Assembly: GCF_007752535.1 (NCBI RefSeq)
Contig: NZ_CP036427.1
Coordinates: 62,001-126,000 of the forward strand
Direction of reading: 5' to 3'
Length of the DNA: 64,000 nt
From: Tautonia plasticadhaerens
Lineage (GTDB): Bacteria; Planctomycetota; Planctomycetia; Isosphaerales; Isosphaeraceae
Part shown: in pieces, positions 1 to 59,055 of the stretch
Layout of the letters: every line of letters begins with the position of its first letter
Numbering within the stretch: the first letter of the stretch is position 1
Notes under the pieces: generated by a model
What the model was told of the DNA's origin: nothing
The model's database searches: none
Seen by the model: the letters and a program-made list of their open reading frames with translations, nothing else
Made by a program: the position numbers and the translations under genes

Positions 1-149
1 TACGGAAGAGTTTTGTCCTTTCAATCCCCTTAGAGTGAGACCCGGAGCTGATCGTCTCCATGGGTCGGTCGGATTTTCGCACGGGCTCGCCGGGGACGCC
101 GCTCGGGGCGGCAGACGAGCCGCGGCTCATCCAGCCGCCCGGCCTGGCG

Positions 150-176
150 TTGCGTCAATCGAGGCAGAAAGTGCAG
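150..176 (+). repeat. Dispersed 27-bp motif, copy a
   Basis: The sequence fits the pattern (N)TGCGTCAAT, three variable bases (here cga), then GGCAGAAAG and a less conserved tail. The same arrangement recurs at 6120, 52114, 54651 and 57891. This copy lies about 60 bp beyond the 3' end of the minus-strand protease gene. Function unknown. Confidence 0.6.
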
Positions 177-238
177 GCGATTGAGGCGACCGAAGGCCTC
201 GGCAGTTGCATGGGCATCGGGCCGCCGCATTGGGCTGC

Positions 239-694
239 TCAACGGCCCAGGATCGGCGGCGGCCGGTCGCCGCGCGGCCGGAGCGTCACGTGTCGTTCCG
301 GGCCATTGAACGTCGCGTTGAAGTACTGCAGGAAGCCGAGGTGACCCCACGACGCCTCGTCCGCCCGACCCCGGTCGAAAGCCACCTTGGCCGACCACCG
401 CAGTGGACGACCCTTGATGGCCACCTCCACCCCCACCGTCCCGTACTCCAGGACCCGATGGCGACCGCCGGCGTCGACCAGGTTCCCGACGTCGTCGCCC
501 CGCCGAGCCGCCTCGACCGCCTCGTACACCTCGAACGGCAGCACGCACTCGACGGCACCGGTGTCGAGGATGCCCCACAGGTCCAGCTCGCCGGGCAGGC
601 CGCGGACCCGGACCAGCACGGCGGGGCGGTAGATGACCGGGGAGGGGTCCGCCGGGGTCGGCTGGGCCTCGAAAGGCTGGTAGCCGAAGCGCAT
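239..694 (-). CDS. Retropepsin-like aspartic protease domain protein
   Basis: This 151-residue protein looks like a single-domain retroviral-type aspartic protease. The active-site triad D44-T45-G46 lies in the context LWGILDTGAVECVLPF, the usual hydrophobic-DTGA setting, and a later GHLGFLQYF stretch resembles the conserved Leu-Gly segment near the end of the fold. No signal peptide or membrane segment is visible, so a cytoplasmic homodimer is likely by analogy. Its ATG shares one base with the stop of the upstream gene (TGATG), implying translational coupling. The substrate is unknown. The assignment rests on the motif and size. Confidence 0.65.
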   Translation of the reverse strand: MRFGYQPFEAQPTPADPSPVIYRPAVLVRVRGLPGELDLWGILDTGAVECVLPFEVYEAVEAARRGDDVGNLVDAGGRHRVLEYGTVGVEVAIKGRPLRWSAKVAFDRGRADEASWGHLGFLQYFNATFNGPERHVTLRPRGDRPPPILGR

Positions 695-984
695 CAGCGG
701 GTCGGGCGCGCGGGCTCGGTTGGGGGGGCCGAGCCGAGACGCTCGAAGGAGACGCGTTCGGAGGTCGCCTCTCCGGCCCGGCGACGGGCCTCGTCGAGGG
801 TGGTGCCCGAGGCGACGATGCGTCGCCCGTCGGCCGACCAGGCGATCCAGCGGCCGGCCAGCTCGCGCGGGACGGGGGGCCGGGGCCCGGGAGCCGGCGG
901 GGCATCCGGGTCGCCGGGCGTGTCGGCCACCGGGCGTCGGAGATGATCACCGAGGCTGCGGAGGGCCTCGAGGATGAGGTTCAT
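694..984 (-). CDS. Small DUF5678-like protein coupled to the protease
   Basis: This is a 96-residue protein. Its middle part (GRWIAWSADGRRIVASG, then TLDEARRRAGE) resembles the short DUF5678-type domain found beside retropepsin-like proteins, where a Trp-containing strand pair is followed by one helix. The N-terminus (MNLILEALRSLGDHLRR) is probably helical, and a proline-rich linker follows at about residues 25-40. It is the first gene of a two-gene unit, and its stop codon overlaps the protease start. It could be a substrate, inhibitor or targeting partner of the protease. The function is inferred from neighbourhood only. Confidence 0.55.
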   Translation of the reverse strand: MNLILEALRSLGDHLRRPVADTPGDPDAPPAPGPRPPVPRELAGRWIAWSADGRRIVASGTTLDEARRRAGEATSERVSFERLGSAPPTEPARPTR

Positions 985-1218
985 GGTCCTGATGCCTCGC
1001 CAGGGCTTCGGATCGACGAGCGTCCCACTATCATCTCCATCCTGGCGTCGAGTCTCCCGGCGGGGCAGGGCCGACGGCCGATCGCCGGGCAGGGCGAGGC
1101 CGATCTCATCACCCTGATCGCTCCGAGCTGGTCGGGCTGCTTGCGAGAAGTGGCAGGGACGTCGGTGGCCGGCGACCGCACCTCCGATCGCGCTGGCGGT
1201 GCGTCTCCTCGGGCTGGA

Positions 1219-1345
1219 AGCGAGCCGCCCGGGCGCCCCGTTGACGGGGACCTGGGCGGTTCTCCTTGCGCCGTCAGCGGTTTTGTCATCGTGCAGACAG
1301 ATTCAGCACTCCTTGATTCCAGGGCAAAATGAATCGGAGTTGATA
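1219..1345 (+). repeat. Interspersed repeat, copy 1 (partner at 56566-56690, inverted)
   Basis: About 125 bp align at roughly 75-80% with the reverse complement of 56566-56690. The best-kept cores are GGTTCTCCTTGCGCCGTCAG and CTTGATTCCAGG. The block includes a CCCCGT/ACGGGG inverted repeat. The rest of the 985-1563 spacer shows no convincing gene. Confidence 0.6.
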
Positions 1346-1402
1346 AAATCGGCTGATGCGACAGCCCCGATTTCCCTGGGTTTTCAGCCCTTCGGGCCCG
1401 CT

Positions 1403-1430
1403 TGCGTGGATGGGGGCGGAGGACGCAGCC
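1403..1430 (+). repeat. Short GC-rich interspersed repeat, copy 1 of 3
   Basis: TTGCGTGGATGGGGGCGGA followed by GGACGCAG resembles 7964-7990 and 25806-25832. A diverged TTTTC/CCGCGGG-type stretch lies upstream in each case. It appears to be a decayed dispersed element. Confidence 0.4.
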
Positions 1431-1563
1431 AGTTCCGGTCAGTCGGCTCACCGGGACAGGGCCCGCCGGCGGGGCAAACCCGAGAGCGGCACTCTGGCTC
1501 GCTCGGAGTGCCCCGGCATCCGAACCCGATTGCCATCGCCGAATCATCTATACAGAAGAGATT

Positions 1564-2612
1564 GGCTCATGGGGCCGAATCCGTGCCCGGCATCTTGACG
1601 ACCGTTTCCGAAGGCGTTCGCATCGAGGGAGATCCGTCGCATCACGCGGAGGGCCCCGCCATGGACCTCCCCCTGATCGACTTCCTGGACGAGGACGCCT
1701 GCTACCGCAAGCTGGTCGAACTGCTGCACCCCGGGGGGTTGGCCTGCCCCAGGTGCGGCCGACGGGAGCGGCTGGGCATCCGCAGCCGCCACCGGGAGCC
1801 GGTCCTGGAGTACCAGTGCGGTCATCGCGGCCGGGTCTTCAACGCCTGGACCGGGGCCGCCCTGCAGGGGACGCACCGCCGCCCCGGCCAACTGCTGCTG
1901 ATCCTCCACGGCGTCGCCACGGGCGAGCCCACCGCCCGGATGGCGCGCGAGCCGGGCTGCGACCGCAAGCACCTGCTGGAGCTGCGGCGCCGGCTCCAGG
2001 ACAACGCCCGGCTCGGGCTGGACCGCAACCCGCTGGATGACGCCGTGGTCGAGGCCGACGAGATGGATCAGGACGCGGGGGAAGAAAGGCATCCCGCATC
2101 GCGACCCGGCCGACCCGCCGCGGCGGCGGGCCAATCGCCGCCGCGGGCACGGCACCTTCGCCGATGACCGCCCGCCGATCGCCGGCGTGGTCGGGCGGCG
2201 GTCGGGTGAATTCCGCTCGGAGGTCCTGGGTCACGCCAACGCGGCGGAGTTGGAGGAGGTCATCGACTGCGCGACGTTGGAGGGGACGGTGGTCGACACC
2301 GACGAGTGGAAGGGGTACAACGGCTTGCCCCGGATGGGGCGGGTGCGCGTGACGGTGGACCATTGGGGGCCGAAGTCCACCTGGGCGCGGGACGACGACG
2401 GGGACGGGGTCCGCGAGGTGCACTGCGGCACGCAGGAGGGGATCCGGACACACGTCCGGGACTTCCTGAGGCGGTTCTACGGCGTGAGCGAGTGGTACCT
2501 GGCCCGGTATCAGGCGGTCTTCCAGTGGAGGTTCGAGATTAAGTCCGTCACCGATGAATTCCTGCGAGTCCTGCTGGGGAGACCCCCGAGCATGGATTCG
2601 GCCCCATGAGCC
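1564..2612 (+). mobile_element. IS1595-type insertion sequence
   Basis: The element is 1,049 bp. It has 23-bp terminal inverted repeats with one mismatch (1564-1586 and 2590-2612, both reading GGCTCATGGGGCCGAATCC inwards) and is flanked by an exact 9-bp direct repeat, gaagagatt, at 1555-1563 and 2613-2621. The intact repeats suggest a fairly recent insertion. It carries one transposase gene that is interrupted by a frameshift. Confidence 0.9.
1661..2609 (+). pseudogene. IS1595-family transposase, frameshifted
   Basis: The N-terminal zinc-ribbon part reads CPRCGRR and later CGHRGRVFNAWTG, as in IS1595 transposases. The catalytic part has VVEADEM, then VVDTDEWKGY, then EVHCGTQEGI and a C-terminal WRFEIKSVTDEFLR. 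The reading frame breaks near 2070-2085: VVEADEM and the next residues lie in the first frame, while GKKGIPHRDPADPPRR lies in the next, consistent with one extra base in the run ggggaagaaaggc. No strong slippage heptamer is present there, so inactivation is more likely than programmed frameshifting. The terminal repeats are intact, so the copy could still move if an enzyme were supplied elsewhere. Confidence 0.85.
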
Positions 2613-6088: not shown

Positions 6089-6110
6089 CGCCTCATCGCC
6101 TGATGAGGCG
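6089..6110 (+). terminator. Hairpin downstream of the beta-helix gene
   Basis: A perfect 8-bp stem, CGCCTCAT and ATGAGGCG, encloses a 6-base loop 85 bp after the stop at 6004. There is no T-run, so an intrinsic terminator is only a suggestion. The dispersed motif copy b follows 9 bp later. Confidence 0.4.
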
Positions 6111-6119
6111 GATGCCCAA

Positions 6120-6146
6120 CTGCGTCAATTGGGGCAGGAAACGCAC
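6120..6146 (+). repeat. Dispersed 27-bp motif, copy b
   Basis: The copy reads CTGCGTCAAT, then tgg, then GGCAGGAAACGCAC. It stands 140 bp upstream of the compact tyrosine recombinase gene. In this copy only, TGCGT and ACGCA at the two ends are complementary. Confidence 0.6.
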
Positions 6147-6285
6147 CGCTCTTGGTAGGTTTGTCACCTTCGTATCTCCCGGCATGAAGACCCTTTCCAG
6201 GCCGTCGCCCCAGCGATAATCTGGATCGTGGAAGACGCAATCCCTGTGTCCCACGATCCTGAGCACGCACGGGTCGGAAGGGGTC

Positions 6286-6813
6286 ATGACCTATCAATTC
6301 GTCCGCGAGCCCCTCACCGCCGACGAGGCCGACCGCCTCGCCAACGCCTGCGACAAGCCTAACGAACGACTCGTCGTCTGGACCCTCCTCGACACCGGCC
6401 ACCGCGTCGGCGAGCTCTGCGACCTGGCCTCCAAGGATGTCCTTTGGCAGCAGCGTCAGCTCCGCATCCGCGGCAAGGGCGGGCCCTACGGCAAGCGGAG
6501 CAAGCTCCGCGTCGTGCCCATGTCCCCCCGCGTCCGCAGGCTCCTGGAGGCCTACTTCGCCCTGGAGCAGCAGTTCCCCCTCGGCAAGCGCCGGGCCCAG
6601 GACCTGGTCAAGGAGGTCGCCAACCGCGCCGGCATCGCCCGCGAGGTCACCCCCCACGTCCTGCGGCACACCTTCGCCGCCATGGCCCTGCAGAAGGGGA
6701 TCAGCCTGACCACCGTCCAGAAGATCCTCGGCCACGACCGCCTGCACACCACGGCGATCTACCTCAACTTCACCGACGTCCACATCCAGGAAGAGTTCGA
6801 GCGCAAGTGGTAG
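6286..6813 (+). CDS. Compact tyrosine recombinase, catalytic domain only
   Basis: A 175-residue protein with the complete tyrosine-recombinase active site: R40 (DTGHRVGELC), K64, H124 and R127 (PHVLRHTFA), H150 (ILGHDR) and nucleophile Y159 (TAIYLN). It lacks the N-terminal arm-binding and SAM-like core-binding domains of normal ~300-residue XerC/D or phage integrases. GGAAGGGG lies just upstream of the ATG, so the start is well supported and the gene is not obviously a 5' truncation. It may act with a partner supplying DNA contacts, or be a degenerate integrase remnant. The neighbouring dispersed motif is a conceivable but unproven recognition site. Confidence 0.8.
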   Translation: MTYQFVREPLTADEADRLANACDKPNERLVVWTLLDTGHRVGELCDLASKDVLWQQRQLRIRGKGGPYGKRSKLRVVPMSPRVRRLLEAYFALEQQFPLGKRRAQDLVKEVANRAGIAREVTPHVLRHTFAAMALQKGISLTTVQKILGHDRLHTTAIYLNFTDVHIQEEFERKW

Positions 6814-6861: not shown

Positions 6862-7221
6862 TCACGCCGAGACGACCCTCGTGTCCGCCTCGGCCCCCTC
6901 GCGTGCCGGCCGGATCACCACCTCTACGTCCTGCCCCAACGCGTTGAGGAACCGGAACAGCCGCTCGGTCGAGAACCCCTCCAGATTGCCCCGCATCAGC
7001 GCCGACACCTTCGGCTGGTCGACCCCCAGCAGCTTCGCCGCCCGCACCTGCGTCAGCCCACGCTCCGCGATCAGCTCGCAGATCCGGTGCACCAGGTCCG
7101 CCTTCGCCAGCAGCTCCTCCGGGCCCTCCAGCCCCAGGTCGGCGAACACGTTCCCGCCGGATCGCTCAACCGCCACCGGCGCCGGTGCCTCCTCGCCCAC
7201 CTTCCGAGGTTCGTCCCGCAT
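6862..7221 (-). CDS. HigA/XRE-type antitoxin, module 1
   Basis: A 119-residue DNA-binding protein. A helix-turn-helix spans ~55-90 (AERGLTQVRAAKLLGVDQPK followed by VSALMRGNLEGFS), then FLNALGQDVEVVIRP, the usual ending of XRE antitoxins paired with Gp49-like RelE toxins. Its start lies 56 bp inside the toxin gene, so the two are co-transcribed with toxin first, as in higBA operons. It should bind the toxin and repress the operon; the inverted repeat at 7580-7595 is a candidate operator. The frame is intact, unlike that of its toxin. Confidence 0.85.
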   Translation of the reverse strand: MRDEPRKVGEEAPAPVAVERSGGNVFADLGLEGPEELLAKADLVHRICELIAERGLTQVRAAKLLGVDQPKVSALMRGNLEGFSTERLFRFLNALGQDVEVVIRPAREGAEADTRVVSA

Positions 7222-7576
7222 GGTCCTGCTCCGCTGCCCTCAACCTCCGCCGGATGACCTCCAAGTCGGCCGCCGGCGTCTTGATCCCCTTCTTCGACTT
7301 CTTCTGGAAGGCGTGGAGCACGTACACCGCCCCTGCGAACTTGACCGTGTAGACGGCACGGTACGTGTCCCCGTCGTGATCCTCGGCAATCTCGAGGACC
7401 CCAGCACCTCCGAACCCTCTGAGGATTATGGCGTCGCGGTGCTTGCCGCCGAGCTGGGCCTGCCGCAGCGCGAAGCCGACCGGCTGGCGGACTTCCTGCG
7501 GGAACTGCCGCAGGTCGTCCCGGCTGGACCCCACCCAGAAGAGGGGCTACGGCTCGTCGGTAGGTTCGGTGCTCAT
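7166..7576 (-). pseudogene. HigB/Gp49-like RelE-family toxin with early stop
   Basis: The body GSSRDDLRQFPQEVR, GFALRQAQLGGKH, GAGVLEIAEDHDGDTYRAVY, HAFQKKSKKGI is the DUF891/Gp49-like mRNA interferase fold of the RelE superfamily. Read from the ATG at 7576, the frame gives MSTEPTDEP, then TAG at 7547-7549, then PLFWVGSSRDDL in the same frame. Related toxins normally have an uninterrupted start with a lysine-proline at this point, so a Lys-to-stop change is likely. A GTG at 7534 could restart translation and give 122 residues, but it lacks a clear Shine-Dalgarno and would lose the first strand. The toxin is probably silenced or weakened. Confidence 0.75.
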
Positions 7577-24417: not shown

Positions 24418-24712
24418 GCCGTCGATGGCGCCGAAATTGTCGTCCTGGCACAGGGAGCCGCGGAGCAGCATACACACCTCGACGAGGCGAAGGTCGTCCC
24501 TGCGCGATCCTGGAGTAAGACGAGGACGACCGAGCCCCGGAGCCAGTCGCGCGAGGACGGCCCTTGGATGACTTGGCCGAGGAGTGCGCCTTTGTGGGCA
24601 GGGAGCGAATCGTCTCGGCATGGCCCCGACGACCACCACACCGTCGGTCGGTGACCGAGCCGAGGCGCGTTGTCGCCCTGCGACCGCGGCGGGGCAGGGG
24701 GGCGGACTCCGT
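24418..24712. other. Spacer between porin and TA module 2
   Basis: The porin and the minus-strand antitoxin converge here. No gene or clear terminator hairpin was seen in these 295 bp. Confidence 0.5.
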
Positions 24713-25542: not shown

Positions 25543-25805
25543 CGGCTCCTCCCGGGACGAGGTCGGGCCTCGGACGGGGGAAATTCTACCACCGGGTGGC
25601 AGGAATTCCCGGGGGCGCCATGATCCGGAGGAGGCATTGAGTGCACCTCCGGTGCGAGGAGACGCAGCCGCCGGGTGACTCGCGGGGGGGCGGGCTCGAC
25701 GCTTCTCGTCGTGGTGCCGGCGGATCCGTCAGGACCGACGACGGGTGACCCGCCGTCGATCCGTGACCCCTCCGAGCCGAGGCTTCCCGCGGGATCGACG
25801 CCCGG

Positions 25806-25832
25806 TGTGTCGATGGGGGCGGATCACGCAGT
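25806..25832 (+). repeat. Short GC-rich interspersed repeat, copy 3 of 3
   Basis: GTGTGTCGATGGGGGCGGAT followed by CACGCAG matches the copies at 1403 and 7964. It overlaps the last codons of the c-di-GMP regulator (stop 25824-25826), so the gene's C-terminal tail is partly repeat-derived. Confidence 0.4.
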
Positions 25833-39172: not shown

Positions 39173-39270
39173 GCACGACGCCTCGTCTCGCGACAAGCAG
39201 CGACGACGTCCGTAGCGCTGAGGCCGTCGGCTAGGGAGCGTGGCCAAACTCCTACCTACCGCGGAGCGGT

Positions 39271-52229: not shown

Positions 52230-52940
52230 TCCTCCGACGAGCACCGGACCGATCCCGGCCCACGGAGGCGTCGTCGCCGGCGAGGCGGTTGAAGGACCTC
52301 GGCTCCGCTGGGATGCTGGTCGGACGCGAGGCCGGATCGACGCCCCTGCGGACCCCGCCGCGAGGGCCGGGCCCCGGGGCATCCATCAGGGGGGCACCGA
52401 GAGATGAACAGAGCCACGCTCTTCGCGCTTGCCCTCGTCGCCTGCGGCGGCGGGGCCTGCTTCGGTCAGGTCAGCGGCAACGCCGCCTTCGGCCAGGCCG
52501 GGGGCAGGGACCGGGCCGCGCAGGTCGAGCGGGCCAAGCGCACCCTCGCCGAGCACGAGCTGCCCCCGGCCGGGTCCAGCACGTTCGTCGAGGCCGCCGT
52601 GCTGGCCAACGTCAAGGCCGATGCGTTCGTCGCCACTTTCGCCCTGGCGCGTGAGGGCCCCACGGCGGCCGAGTGTCATCGCCTGATGGACGAGGCCGTC
52701 GCCCGGTTCGTCGAGGACATCAAGGCGCTGGGCGTCCGCGGGCCGGAGATCTTTGTGGACTACGTCGCCCAGGTTCAGGTCTACGGCTTCGAGGTCGAGG
52801 GGGACGAGGCCCGCGAGGAACTCGTCGGCTATGAGCTCAAGAAGAACGTTTCGGTCCGCTACGCCGACCGCACGCTGCTCGACCGCCTAGTCCTGGCGGC
52901 GGCCCGCTCGGAGGTCCATGACCTGATCGAGGTGGACTAC

Positions 52941-54602: not shown

Positions 54603-55178
54603 GGCGCCTGACTGGTTCAGATCCCACTTCGATGGGACACGCTTTCGGCCGCGCTTTCTGCCACCATTGACGCACTTGAATGAACGATCTCTGGGGCGGG
54701 CTCGCTCCCGCCGCCGCCTTCACGCGCCTCTGATGATCGCACCGGGCAGACCCGCCGAATCCCAGGAACTGCGACTCGGCACGAGAGCCCCGATGGGATC
54801 GTCGACGAATGACCCCCTTGGTTCAGGCGTCGAGGCCCGTCTCACCGTCCCGGAGGGCGATCGTCCCGGCCGGGCCGGTGGCGGCCAGGTGGGAGCCGTC
54901 GAGGCTTCTTCAGGCCGGGGCCTGGACCGTTCGCGACGATGGCTCGCAGTCTGCCTCGCCCCCGTCGAGATCGCCGCGTCGATTTCCGTTCGATGGTCAT
55001 TGCGGCTCGGCACCGCCGCGACGACTTCGGGCCCCGGGCGGTCGTATCGGGACCGGGCAACGATCGGCGTCGGGGCGTTGCGAGCGGGGTCGGGACCGGG
55101 CATGGTGGCAGGAATCCCTCCGCTCCGGTGCCCGGACGATCGGCCGAGGTGGTGCGAGGCATGCTGAGGAAAGCTCCG
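54603..55178. other. Spacer with dispersed motif copy e
   Basis: No convincing gene was seen in 576 bp. The motif is at 54651-54675 on the minus strand (GTGCGTCAAT, ggt, GGCAGAAAGCGC). It starts 48 bp after the SIMPL gene stop. Confidence 0.5.
54651..54675 (-). repeat. Dispersed 27-bp motif, copy e
   Basis: Minus-strand reading is GTGCGTCAAT, three variable bases ggt, GGCAGAAAGCGC. The tail departs from the consensus after GCG. Confidence 0.6.
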
Positions 55179-57890: not shown

Positions 57891-57917
57891 GTTCGCCTTC
57901 TGCCCACATTGACGCAC
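57891..57917 (-). repeat. Dispersed 27-bp motif, copy f
   Basis: Minus-strand reading is GTGCGTCAAT, gtg, GGCAGAAGGCGAAC. It fills the convergent gap between the bestrophin stop (57841) and the kdpD stop (57919). Confidence 0.65.
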
Positions 57918-57918
57918 T

Positions 57919-59055
57919 TCAGACATCGACGACGACGACATCGGCCCCGTCGGTCTTCGCCAGCACCGCCTCCAGCAGCGACCCTCGCATCAGCCGACGC
58001 CAGGTCGACTGCCGCGACTTGCCCAGCACGATCACCCGGATCTCGTACTCCCGGGCGAACGAGGCGATCGTGCTGGCCACGTCGGGGCCCTTGAAGGTCA
58101 TCGGGATGCCGCCGAGCTGCTGGGCCAGCTCCAGGTTCTTGCCGATCTGCCGCTGGGTGGCGGCGTCGATGCGGGTGAGGTCCTCGGCCGGAGTCTGGAT
58201 GTAGACGGCGTACCAGGGGGCATCGAGCCGGTCGGCCAGCCGGGCGGCCTTGCGCAGCAGGGCCGGCGCGTTGGGGCTGCGGCTGGAGAGGCCGACCATC
58301 ACGCGGTCGGTCGCCAAGGCCGGGGCGCGGTCGGCCTCGGCCCGGCGGCTGCGGCGGTCGATCAGGTGGGCCAACTCGGAGAGGGTCAGCTCGCGGAGGC
58401 GGGTCAGGTTTGCCTCGGTGAAGAAGTTGGCCATCGCCCGCTCGACGCGCTCCGGCGGGTAGACCTTGCCAGCCCGGAGGCGATCGAGCAGGTCCTCGGC
58501 CGGGAGGTCGACGTTGACGATCTGGTCGGCCTCGGCAAGCACGGAGTCGGGCAGCCGCTCCTTGACCTTCACGCCGGTGGCGCGCTCGACCTCGTCGTAG
58601 AGGCTCTCCAGGTGCTGGACGTTGACCGTGGTGATGACGTGGATGCCGGCCCGGAGCAGGTCCTCGACGTCCTGATACCGCTTCGGGTGCCGGCCGCCGG
58701 GGGCGTTGGTGTGGGCCAGCTCGTCGACGAGGCAGACGGTGGGACGGCGGTCGAGGATGGCGTCGACTTCCATCTCGCGGAGCGTGACGCCGCGGTACTC
58801 AATCTTCCGGGGCGGGATCACCGGCAGTTCGCCGAGCTGCTCGGCCGTCTCGGCGCGGCCGTGGGTCTCGACCAGGCCGACGGCCACGTCGACGCCCTGC
58901 CGCTTCAGGCGGTGCCCCTCGCGGAGCATGGCGAAGGTCTTGCCCACGCCCGCGGCCGGGCCGAGGTAGACCTTCAGCCGGCCGCGCTGCTGGCGGCGGA
59001 TGAGCTGGAGGAACTGCTCAGGGTTGGGGCGGGCGGCTTCGGCGTCGACGGCCAT
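57919..59055 (-). CDS. kdpD: Truncated KdpD: KdpD and Usp domains without histidine kinase
   Basis: A 378-residue protein started at MAVDAEAARPNPEQF (GGGAG upstream). The KdpD domain (20-230) has Walker A GPAAGVGKT (32-40), VGLVETHGRAETAEQL, VDELAHTNAPGGRHPKRYQD and TTVNVQHLESL. A universal-stress-like domain (~245-375) follows, ending MRGSLLEAVLAKTDGADVVV. The membrane helices, GAF and kinase core of the ~900-residue KdpD are absent, and the motif copy f follows directly. Short KdpD forms are known and may signal through another kinase or regulate Kdp directly. Last gene of the operon, 16 bp after kdpC. Confidence 0.9.
   Translation of the reverse strand: MAVDAEAARPNPEQFLQLIRRQQRGRLKVYLGPAAGVGKTFAMLREGHRLKRQGVDVAVGLVETHGRAETAEQLGELPVIPPRKIEYRGVTLREMEVDAILDRRPTVCLVDELAHTNAPGGRHPKRYQDVEDLLRAGIHVITTVNVQHLESLYDEVERATGVKVKERLPDSVLAEADQIVNVDLPAEDLLDRLRAGKVYPPERVERAMANFFTEANLTRLRELTLSELAHLIDRRSRRAEADRAPALATDRVMVGLSSRSPNAPALLRKAARLADRLDAPWYAVYIQTPAEDLTRIDAATQRQIGKNLELAQQLGGIPMTFKGPDVASTIASFAREYEIRVIVLGKSRQSTWRRLMRGSLLEAVLAKTDGADVVVVDV

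Follow-up and report, generated by a model that had tools for sequence, protein, structure and literature searches.

The window analysed here, a stretch of 64,000 nucleotides, covers positions 62001-126000 of the 278-kb contig C2 in the 9.4-Mb, six-contig genome of Tautonia plasticadhaerens. The other contigs comprise the main contig C1 (8.67 Mb), C3 (140 kb), C4 (124 kb), C5 (92 kb), and one more, and the smaller ones appear to be plasmids, given their size, an assembly that is 99 % complete, and the fact that many homologues of the gene described below are plasmid-borne. This gene encodes a tyrosine recombinase of only 175 residues (Table 1), and its ATG is preceded by GGAAGGGG. Downstream follow an antitoxin-type regulator and a toxin gene; the homologue in Aquicella likewise neighbours a pair made up of a regulator and a RelE/ParE toxin. 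A copy of the motif TGCGTCAATNNNGGCAG, placed 140 bp upstream by the first-pass annotation, lies at 6121-6137, about 150 bp 5' of the start codon, within a 29-bp core site, and the imperfect inverted repeat between this site and the gene possibly represents an operator or an accessory site. A perfect 22-bp palindrome also occurs at 6089-6110; apart from 13 consecutive bases of it that are found again at 52676, it showed no link to the sites.

Table 1. Genes, core sites, and modules in the window and on contigs C2-C4 (window coordinates unless a contig is named)
Feature	Position	Strand	Basis or score
Core site, one end of the 1.25-kb module present twice on C2	148..176	-	
Gene in the duplicated 1.25-kb module, 151 aa, DTGA motif	242..694	-	no Pfam match
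Core site, other end of the 1.25-kb module	1400..1428	-	
29-bp Xer-type core site GTGCGTTTCCTGCCCCAATTGACGCAGTT, contains motif TGCGTCAATNNNGGCAG	6118..6146	-	38.6 bits
Imperfect inverted repeat GGATCGTGG..CCACGATCC, between site and start codon	6220..6262	.	
Stand-alone catalytic-domain tyrosine recombinase, 175 aa	6286..6813	+	Pfam, alignment, AF2 model, fold match
HTH_37 antitoxin-type regulator, 3' of recombinase	6862..7221	-	Pfam
Gp49/RelE-like toxin	7166..7534	-	Pfam
Core site	24582..24610	-	26.6 bits
Core site, with a weaker second copy 164 bp away at 25639	25803..25831	-	27.9 bits
Core site, end of 2455-bp segment	39268..39296	-	
Core site, end of second copy of 2455-bp segment	52114..52142	+	
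Core site	54649..54677	+	
Core site (C2:119890)	57891..57919	+	23.1 bits, cross-phylum matrix; background maximum 12.7
Module: PIN protein	C2:141.6-142.5 kb		Pfam
Module: PIN + FitA-like RHH	C3:27.4-28.6 kb		Pfam
Module: HTH_17 + PIN_3	C3:114.0-115.2 kb		Pfam
Module: PIN_3 + MazE	C4:40.9-42.2 kb		Pfam

The PF00589 match spans residues 10-163 (E 5.5e-28), and Pfam returned no SAM-like core-binding or arm-binding domain. All catalytic residues are there, namely R40, K64, H124, R127, H150, and Y159, and across 28 family members the last five are invariant and R40 nearly so; with this R-K-H-R-H-Y set and its fold, the protein belongs to the tyrosine recombinase superfamily. The AF2 model (pLDDT 88.7) is nearest in fold to XerA 5hxy with 4a8e close behind, and by sequence, too, archaeal XerA is the nearest solved relative (4a8e at 4.5e-21, then 5hxy). 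Scores nevertheless fell below every curated equivalog cut-off compared (XerA 137 against 220 bits, XerC 99.5 against 335, XerD 96 against 330), did not reach that of the FimB/FimE profile (26.8 against 221), and stayed far below that of the integron-integrase profile (70 against 265).

The 28 full-length members of the family, this enzyme and 27 homologues that are 48-80 % identical to it, align over 175 columns with zero gaps. Since, in addition, the reading frame is usually closed by a stop a few codons 5' of the homologue start, no N-terminal domain has been lost. The gap-free alignment rules out a truncated integrase as the identity of the open reading frame, which encodes an intact tyrosine recombinase with no domain other than the catalytic one. 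The same holds for every full-length homologue, none of which has the two-domain build (SAM-like core-binding plus catalytic) of Xer proteins. Thus, Pfam and alignment agree with the initial description of a 175-residue enzyme with the full catalytic set, a well-formed start, and no arm- or core-binding domain, and the full-length homologues are all 175 residues long rather than truncated integrases at phage scars, the outcome that would have spoken against it. Three other genera of the same bacterial family have homologues (68-80 % identity) that begin and stop at the same positions, and more distant ones extend over many phyla, with records labelled Legionella, Rickettsiales, Odyssella, Phycisphaera, Elusimicrobia, Aerophobetes, Armatimonadota, and Poribacteria, among others, many of these records being metagenome bins whose taxon labels may be wrong. 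Many are located on plasmids, as in Cardinium, Piscirickettsia, Megaira, and Aquicella, and five contigs of a viral collection carry homologues as well. We found no direct account of this family in the literature, which is not proof of absence. Two plasmid copies deviate: one in Aquicella is split by an IS4-family transposase (NZ_LR699118.1 2574-4455, L124), and that of Cardinium pCher (NC_018606.1 2868-3380, L113) stops at 170 residues.

Most homologues carry upstream, usually at -110 to -214, a near-palindrome of about 29 bp, AGTTCGCCTTCYRCCTAAAAAGGCGAACT (11-7-11), with the consensus AGTTCGCCTTCCGCCTAAAAAGGCGAACT. When each clade was left out in turn from the matrix built on the sites of 24 homologues, the top-scoring position of the locus remained upstream, on the gene's strand and at -110 to -214 in nearly all 24, although the most divergent of them then scored only 5-17 bits. 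An inverted second copy often follows about 142 bp past the core and adjoins the start codon, so that gene, adjoining core, and accessory site occur together as in res systems. In other homologues, the half-site forms an inverted repeat at -38 to -70, and such repeats adjoin promoter-like sequences upstream of the recombinase genes. Sister loci resemble each other from the outer boundary of the core as far as roughly the stop codon and are unlike beyond, and core site and recombinase gene therefore behave as one unit. Only one strong site is present on the plasmid of Aquicella and on each of the complete plasmids from Megaira and Piscirickettsia. Several Aerophobetes-type loci have the core site 0.5-1.3 kb upstream of the recombinase, with a different gene each time between the two and in the same direction (L087:2237-3076, L089:246-1079, L090:268-726, L093:1739-2020, L096:811-1008); the recombinase is common to all of these loci and a downstream ParA to some, and the intervening position is possibly a cargo slot. 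Pairs of orphan sites 139-142 bp apart, which is the core-to-accessory spacing of the homologues, also occur with no adjoining recombinase gene (C2:200306/200446, L144:4630/4772, L137:3027/3166). The site upstream of the window recombinase resembles the homologues' core in position but lies on the strand opposite to the gene, and only the core is clear there, the usual accessory copy not being obvious; for these reasons it could be a dispersed site that lies nearby by chance.

The motif itself is a variant of the homologues' core site. On the other strand, TGCGTCAATNNNGGCAG corresponds to the right-hand part of GTTCGCCTTCYGCCNNNATTGACGCA, and its three-base centre corresponds to the variable NNN in the 7-bp spacer YGCCNNN. 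The site is therefore a normal Xer-type core, and the earlier argument that so short a centre speaks against an Xer-like reaction does not hold. The assignment follows from a matrix made of the homologues' sites alone, without this genome, which retrieves the motif copies as top matches on the T. plasticadhaerens plasmids, the dispersed sites scoring 16-24 bits (for instance 23.6 at C3:10968 and 18.2 at C4:103816) against a background maximum of 12.7. Within the window, five copies with at most three mismatches compare with 0.05 expected. Genome-wide there are 14 exact copies and none of the reversed control; 12 lie on C2-C4 and two on C1, which was covered by pattern search only. A weight matrix found 46 sites of at least 20 bits on C2-C4 (20, 17, and 9, respectively) over a background of about 0-2, and a single borderline one on C5 (20.2). 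All 17 sites of C3 point the same way, whereas C2 has 14 plus and six minus, and C4 two plus and seven minus. Some core-like sites form same-orientation pairs 203-205 bp apart (C2:132049/132254, C2:141442/141646, C2:63400/63197, which is window 1400/1197, and C3:115427/115223), with intervening DNA that is partly conserved, as if the pair were a composite unit.

The sites part homologous from unrelated DNA. The 1.25-kb module at window 148-1428 has an inverted second copy outside the window (C2:155882-157161, 99.7 % identity); each copy begins in one site and ends in another, with unrelated sequence outside. Its 151-residue product may be aspartyl-protease-like, judging by eye from the DTGA motif. 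Similarly, the two 2455-bp segments that end at the sites at 39268 and 52114 are 100 % identical up to these sites and show no identity past them, and a segment common to C3 and C4 (92 %) begins in sites. The junctions of duplicated segments switch within the spacer. Nine of 173 distinct repeat breakpoints fall inside sites, compared with 0.48 expected, although the nine are paired and thus represent no more than about 4-5 independent events. Most long repeats of transposase type have their ends outside sites, so that the motif is unlikely to be the end of an insertion sequence. Modules between neighbouring sites mostly measure 0.8-3.5 kb and hold one or two genes, among whose products Pfam recognises PIN-type toxin-antitoxin proteins (Table 1) and a HAD hydrolase. 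That duplicated segments end inside sites, and that the modules carry genes including PIN-type toxin-antitoxin pairs, makes it very likely that the motif is an active recombination site delimiting mobile modules. Two further repeats were noted, namely a near-identical direct duplication of 20 kb on C4 (34779-54574 and 64905-84771, 99.6 %) and, at window 1542-2609, a transposase resembling the IS1595 type by eye, with a near-identical copy at C3:35500-36549.

Among 45 genomes of the order, the 175-residue enzyme is present in T. plasticadhaerens (G000), G009, G012, and G019, and a strict site pattern, for which the controls were empty, matched in four: six times in T. plasticadhaerens and once each in G009, G020, and G028. 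The homologue core pattern, searched in 59 relatives, matched in G000, G009, G012, G019, and G020, an association that is supportive, not strong, because three of these matches are the upstream sites that guided the pattern. Where relatives contain core-like sites, they mostly have the enzyme too; G020, G028, and G023 contain single or paired site-like sequences without it, and a catalytic-motif search found no recombinase near the orphan sites of G023, G013, G028, G020, G009, G012, and G003. C3 and C4 also bear sites and no copy of the enzyme. The exact motif is absent near the three closest homologues, which have their own core variants instead. No genome with many motif copies and no enzyme, which the first-pass annotation had named as contrary evidence, occurs among the 45 of the order or the 59 relatives. 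Its proposal of a stand-alone unit acting on the dispersed motif is upheld as to the stand-alone enzyme; that enzyme and motif belong together is suggested by the same class of site lying upstream of homologues across phyla.

On balance, we consider it likely that the family represents an XerA-like plasmid recombinase which, by its catalytic domain alone, acts on its own core of about 29 bp, and that dispersed copies of this core delimit modules. The 175-residue enzyme probably serves as a plasmid resolvase acting on a res-like site of its own, and likely also moves modules between sites. Recombinase subunits would bind the TKCG-containing arms, each of about 11 bp, and exchange strands across the 7-bp spacer, with the core and the inverted accessory copy that homologues have in the approximately 200 bp before the gene possibly acting in a res-like arrangement. 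Where one site is present, plasmid multimers would be resolved; in T. plasticadhaerens, with copies spread over three plasmids, the same reaction could excise, insert, or invert the modules between them, often along with toxin-antitoxin genes, and the variable NNN of the spacer might decide which sites can pair. A broader picture seems to us somewhat better than an even bet: a pan-phylum plasmid system run by a catalytic domain alone, of which the planctomycetes would have a gene-cassette version with dispersed 29-bp direct-repeat sites served in trans by one 175-residue enzyme, shuffling toxin-antitoxin and other genes among plasmids.

The main rival explanation, because no host dif was found with the patterns searched, attributes the dispersed motif to host XerC/XerD as a pdif-like site, while the 175-residue enzyme would act only on its own res site and the arms would be alike since both are Xer-family sites. 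The TKCG arms, the toxin-antitoxin-rich modules, and the plasmid location all fit pdif modules, the host encodes an XerD-type recombinase, sites exist on plasmids without the 175-residue enzyme, and the window site is inverted relative to the other homologues. We nonetheless regard this explanation as unlikely, since all relatives should have XerCD, yet many sites are found in T. plasticadhaerens alone, and a matrix learned from the family's own sites retrieves the dispersed ones. Furthermore, the E. coli-type dif pattern occurred in none of 13 genomes, and the dif-like palindrome of two congeners, CGCACATAATCCCCCTTATGTGAA, is unlike the motif. In T. plasticadhaerens, a relaxed dif pattern gave mostly chance matches, and the congener-derived one was absent. 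The palindrome is identical at G002:C5:201442 and G003:C1:513120, with dif-like arms CACATAA/TTATGTG.

It is improbable that the modules are instead moved by the full-length integrase of C3, or by another unseen recombinase: a tyrosine integrase with a SAM-like core-binding domain does lie at C3:135868-137034, with a disrupted, decayed copy on C4, but no core site was found within 20 kb of the former or 11 kb of the latter, and no such enzyme was detected on C2, the contig richest in sites. Less probable still are three other readings. The motif could be of the integron attC type and be used by the chromosomal integron integrase at C1:2.709 Mb (C1:2709306, L004; TIGR02249 at 470 bits against a cut-off of 265), and the direct orientation of the C3 sites does recall a cassette array; however, this integrase, on the main contig, is more than 160 kb from the nearest site among the matches listed, and the site is a single 29-bp core lacking attC boxes, whereas attC measures 57-141 nt with GTTRRRY/RYYYAAC boxes. 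We give equally little credit to a decayed phage or ICE integrase at a scar with a coincidental motif nearby, as its short length might suggest and as one of some 20 dispersed C2 sites would fall this close upstream by chance in a few per cent of cases, because length and start are the same across phyla with catalytic residues conserved, the gap-free conservation refutes decay, and homologues have linked sites. No more credible is a regulatory operator in place of a recombination site: half-site inverted repeats near promoter-like sequences mean that the protein may also autoregulate, but duplicated DNA starts and ends inside motif copies.

A widely distributed family that consists of exactly the catalytic domain and has an identifiable site offers a ready-made minimal model for DNA recognition and assembly. 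The dispersed sites, in turn, would extend cassette-type exchange, as in integrons and Acinetobacter pdif, to planctomycete plasmids with a different enzyme, and would offer a testable route by which toxin-antitoxin modules may spread.

Compared with known systems, the term "new type" of mobile system used in the first-pass annotation is too strong, since Acinetobacter pdif modules and integron cassettes are close in kind. In Acinetobacter, pdif modules are bounded by XerC/XerD sites on plasmids (PMC13141974, PMC6449649). Both systems have short, dispersed Xer-type plasmid sites, a variable spacer, and modules of one to few genes with toxin-antitoxin cargo; however, pdif has a 28-bp site with a 6-bp spacer and XerC/XerD arms that resemble chromosomal dif, the XerD arm being of the TTATGTTAAAT type, rather than 29 bp, 7 bp, and other arms, its modules alternate in orientation (C and D) whereas those described here are mostly direct, and it has no dedicated enzyme in contrast to a dedicated single-domain recombinase. 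We found no direct literature on planctomycete dif modules, which again is not proof of absence. With integron cassettes, the system has in common directly repeated sites that bound modules of one or two genes, but it lacks attC structure and an adjoining intI, and its enzyme is far from an integron integrase by profile score. FimB/FimE are short, catalytic-type tyrosine recombinases of about 200 residues; their profile matches weakly, their sites differ, and no fim-type inversion was found. Archaeal XerA (5hxy, 4a8e) and other Xer proteins are closest in catalytic sequence, fold, and single-recombinase logic, yet a survey of the superfamily describes simple tyrosine recombinases as combining a core-binding with a catalytic domain (PMC8138268), and XerA possesses an N-terminal DNA-binding domain (PMC3646895) that the 175-residue family, below the XerA cut-off, does not have. 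The plasmid resolvase/res systems (TnpI-IRS, ResD, cer-Xer) share with the homologues the gene with upstream core and accessory copy, the plasmid location, and ParA and toxin-antitoxin neighbours. To our knowledge, known tyrosine resolvases carry a core-binding domain, unlike this family, for which multimer resolution is a prediction. Overall, the system comes closest to a combination of a plasmid res system and pdif-type modules.
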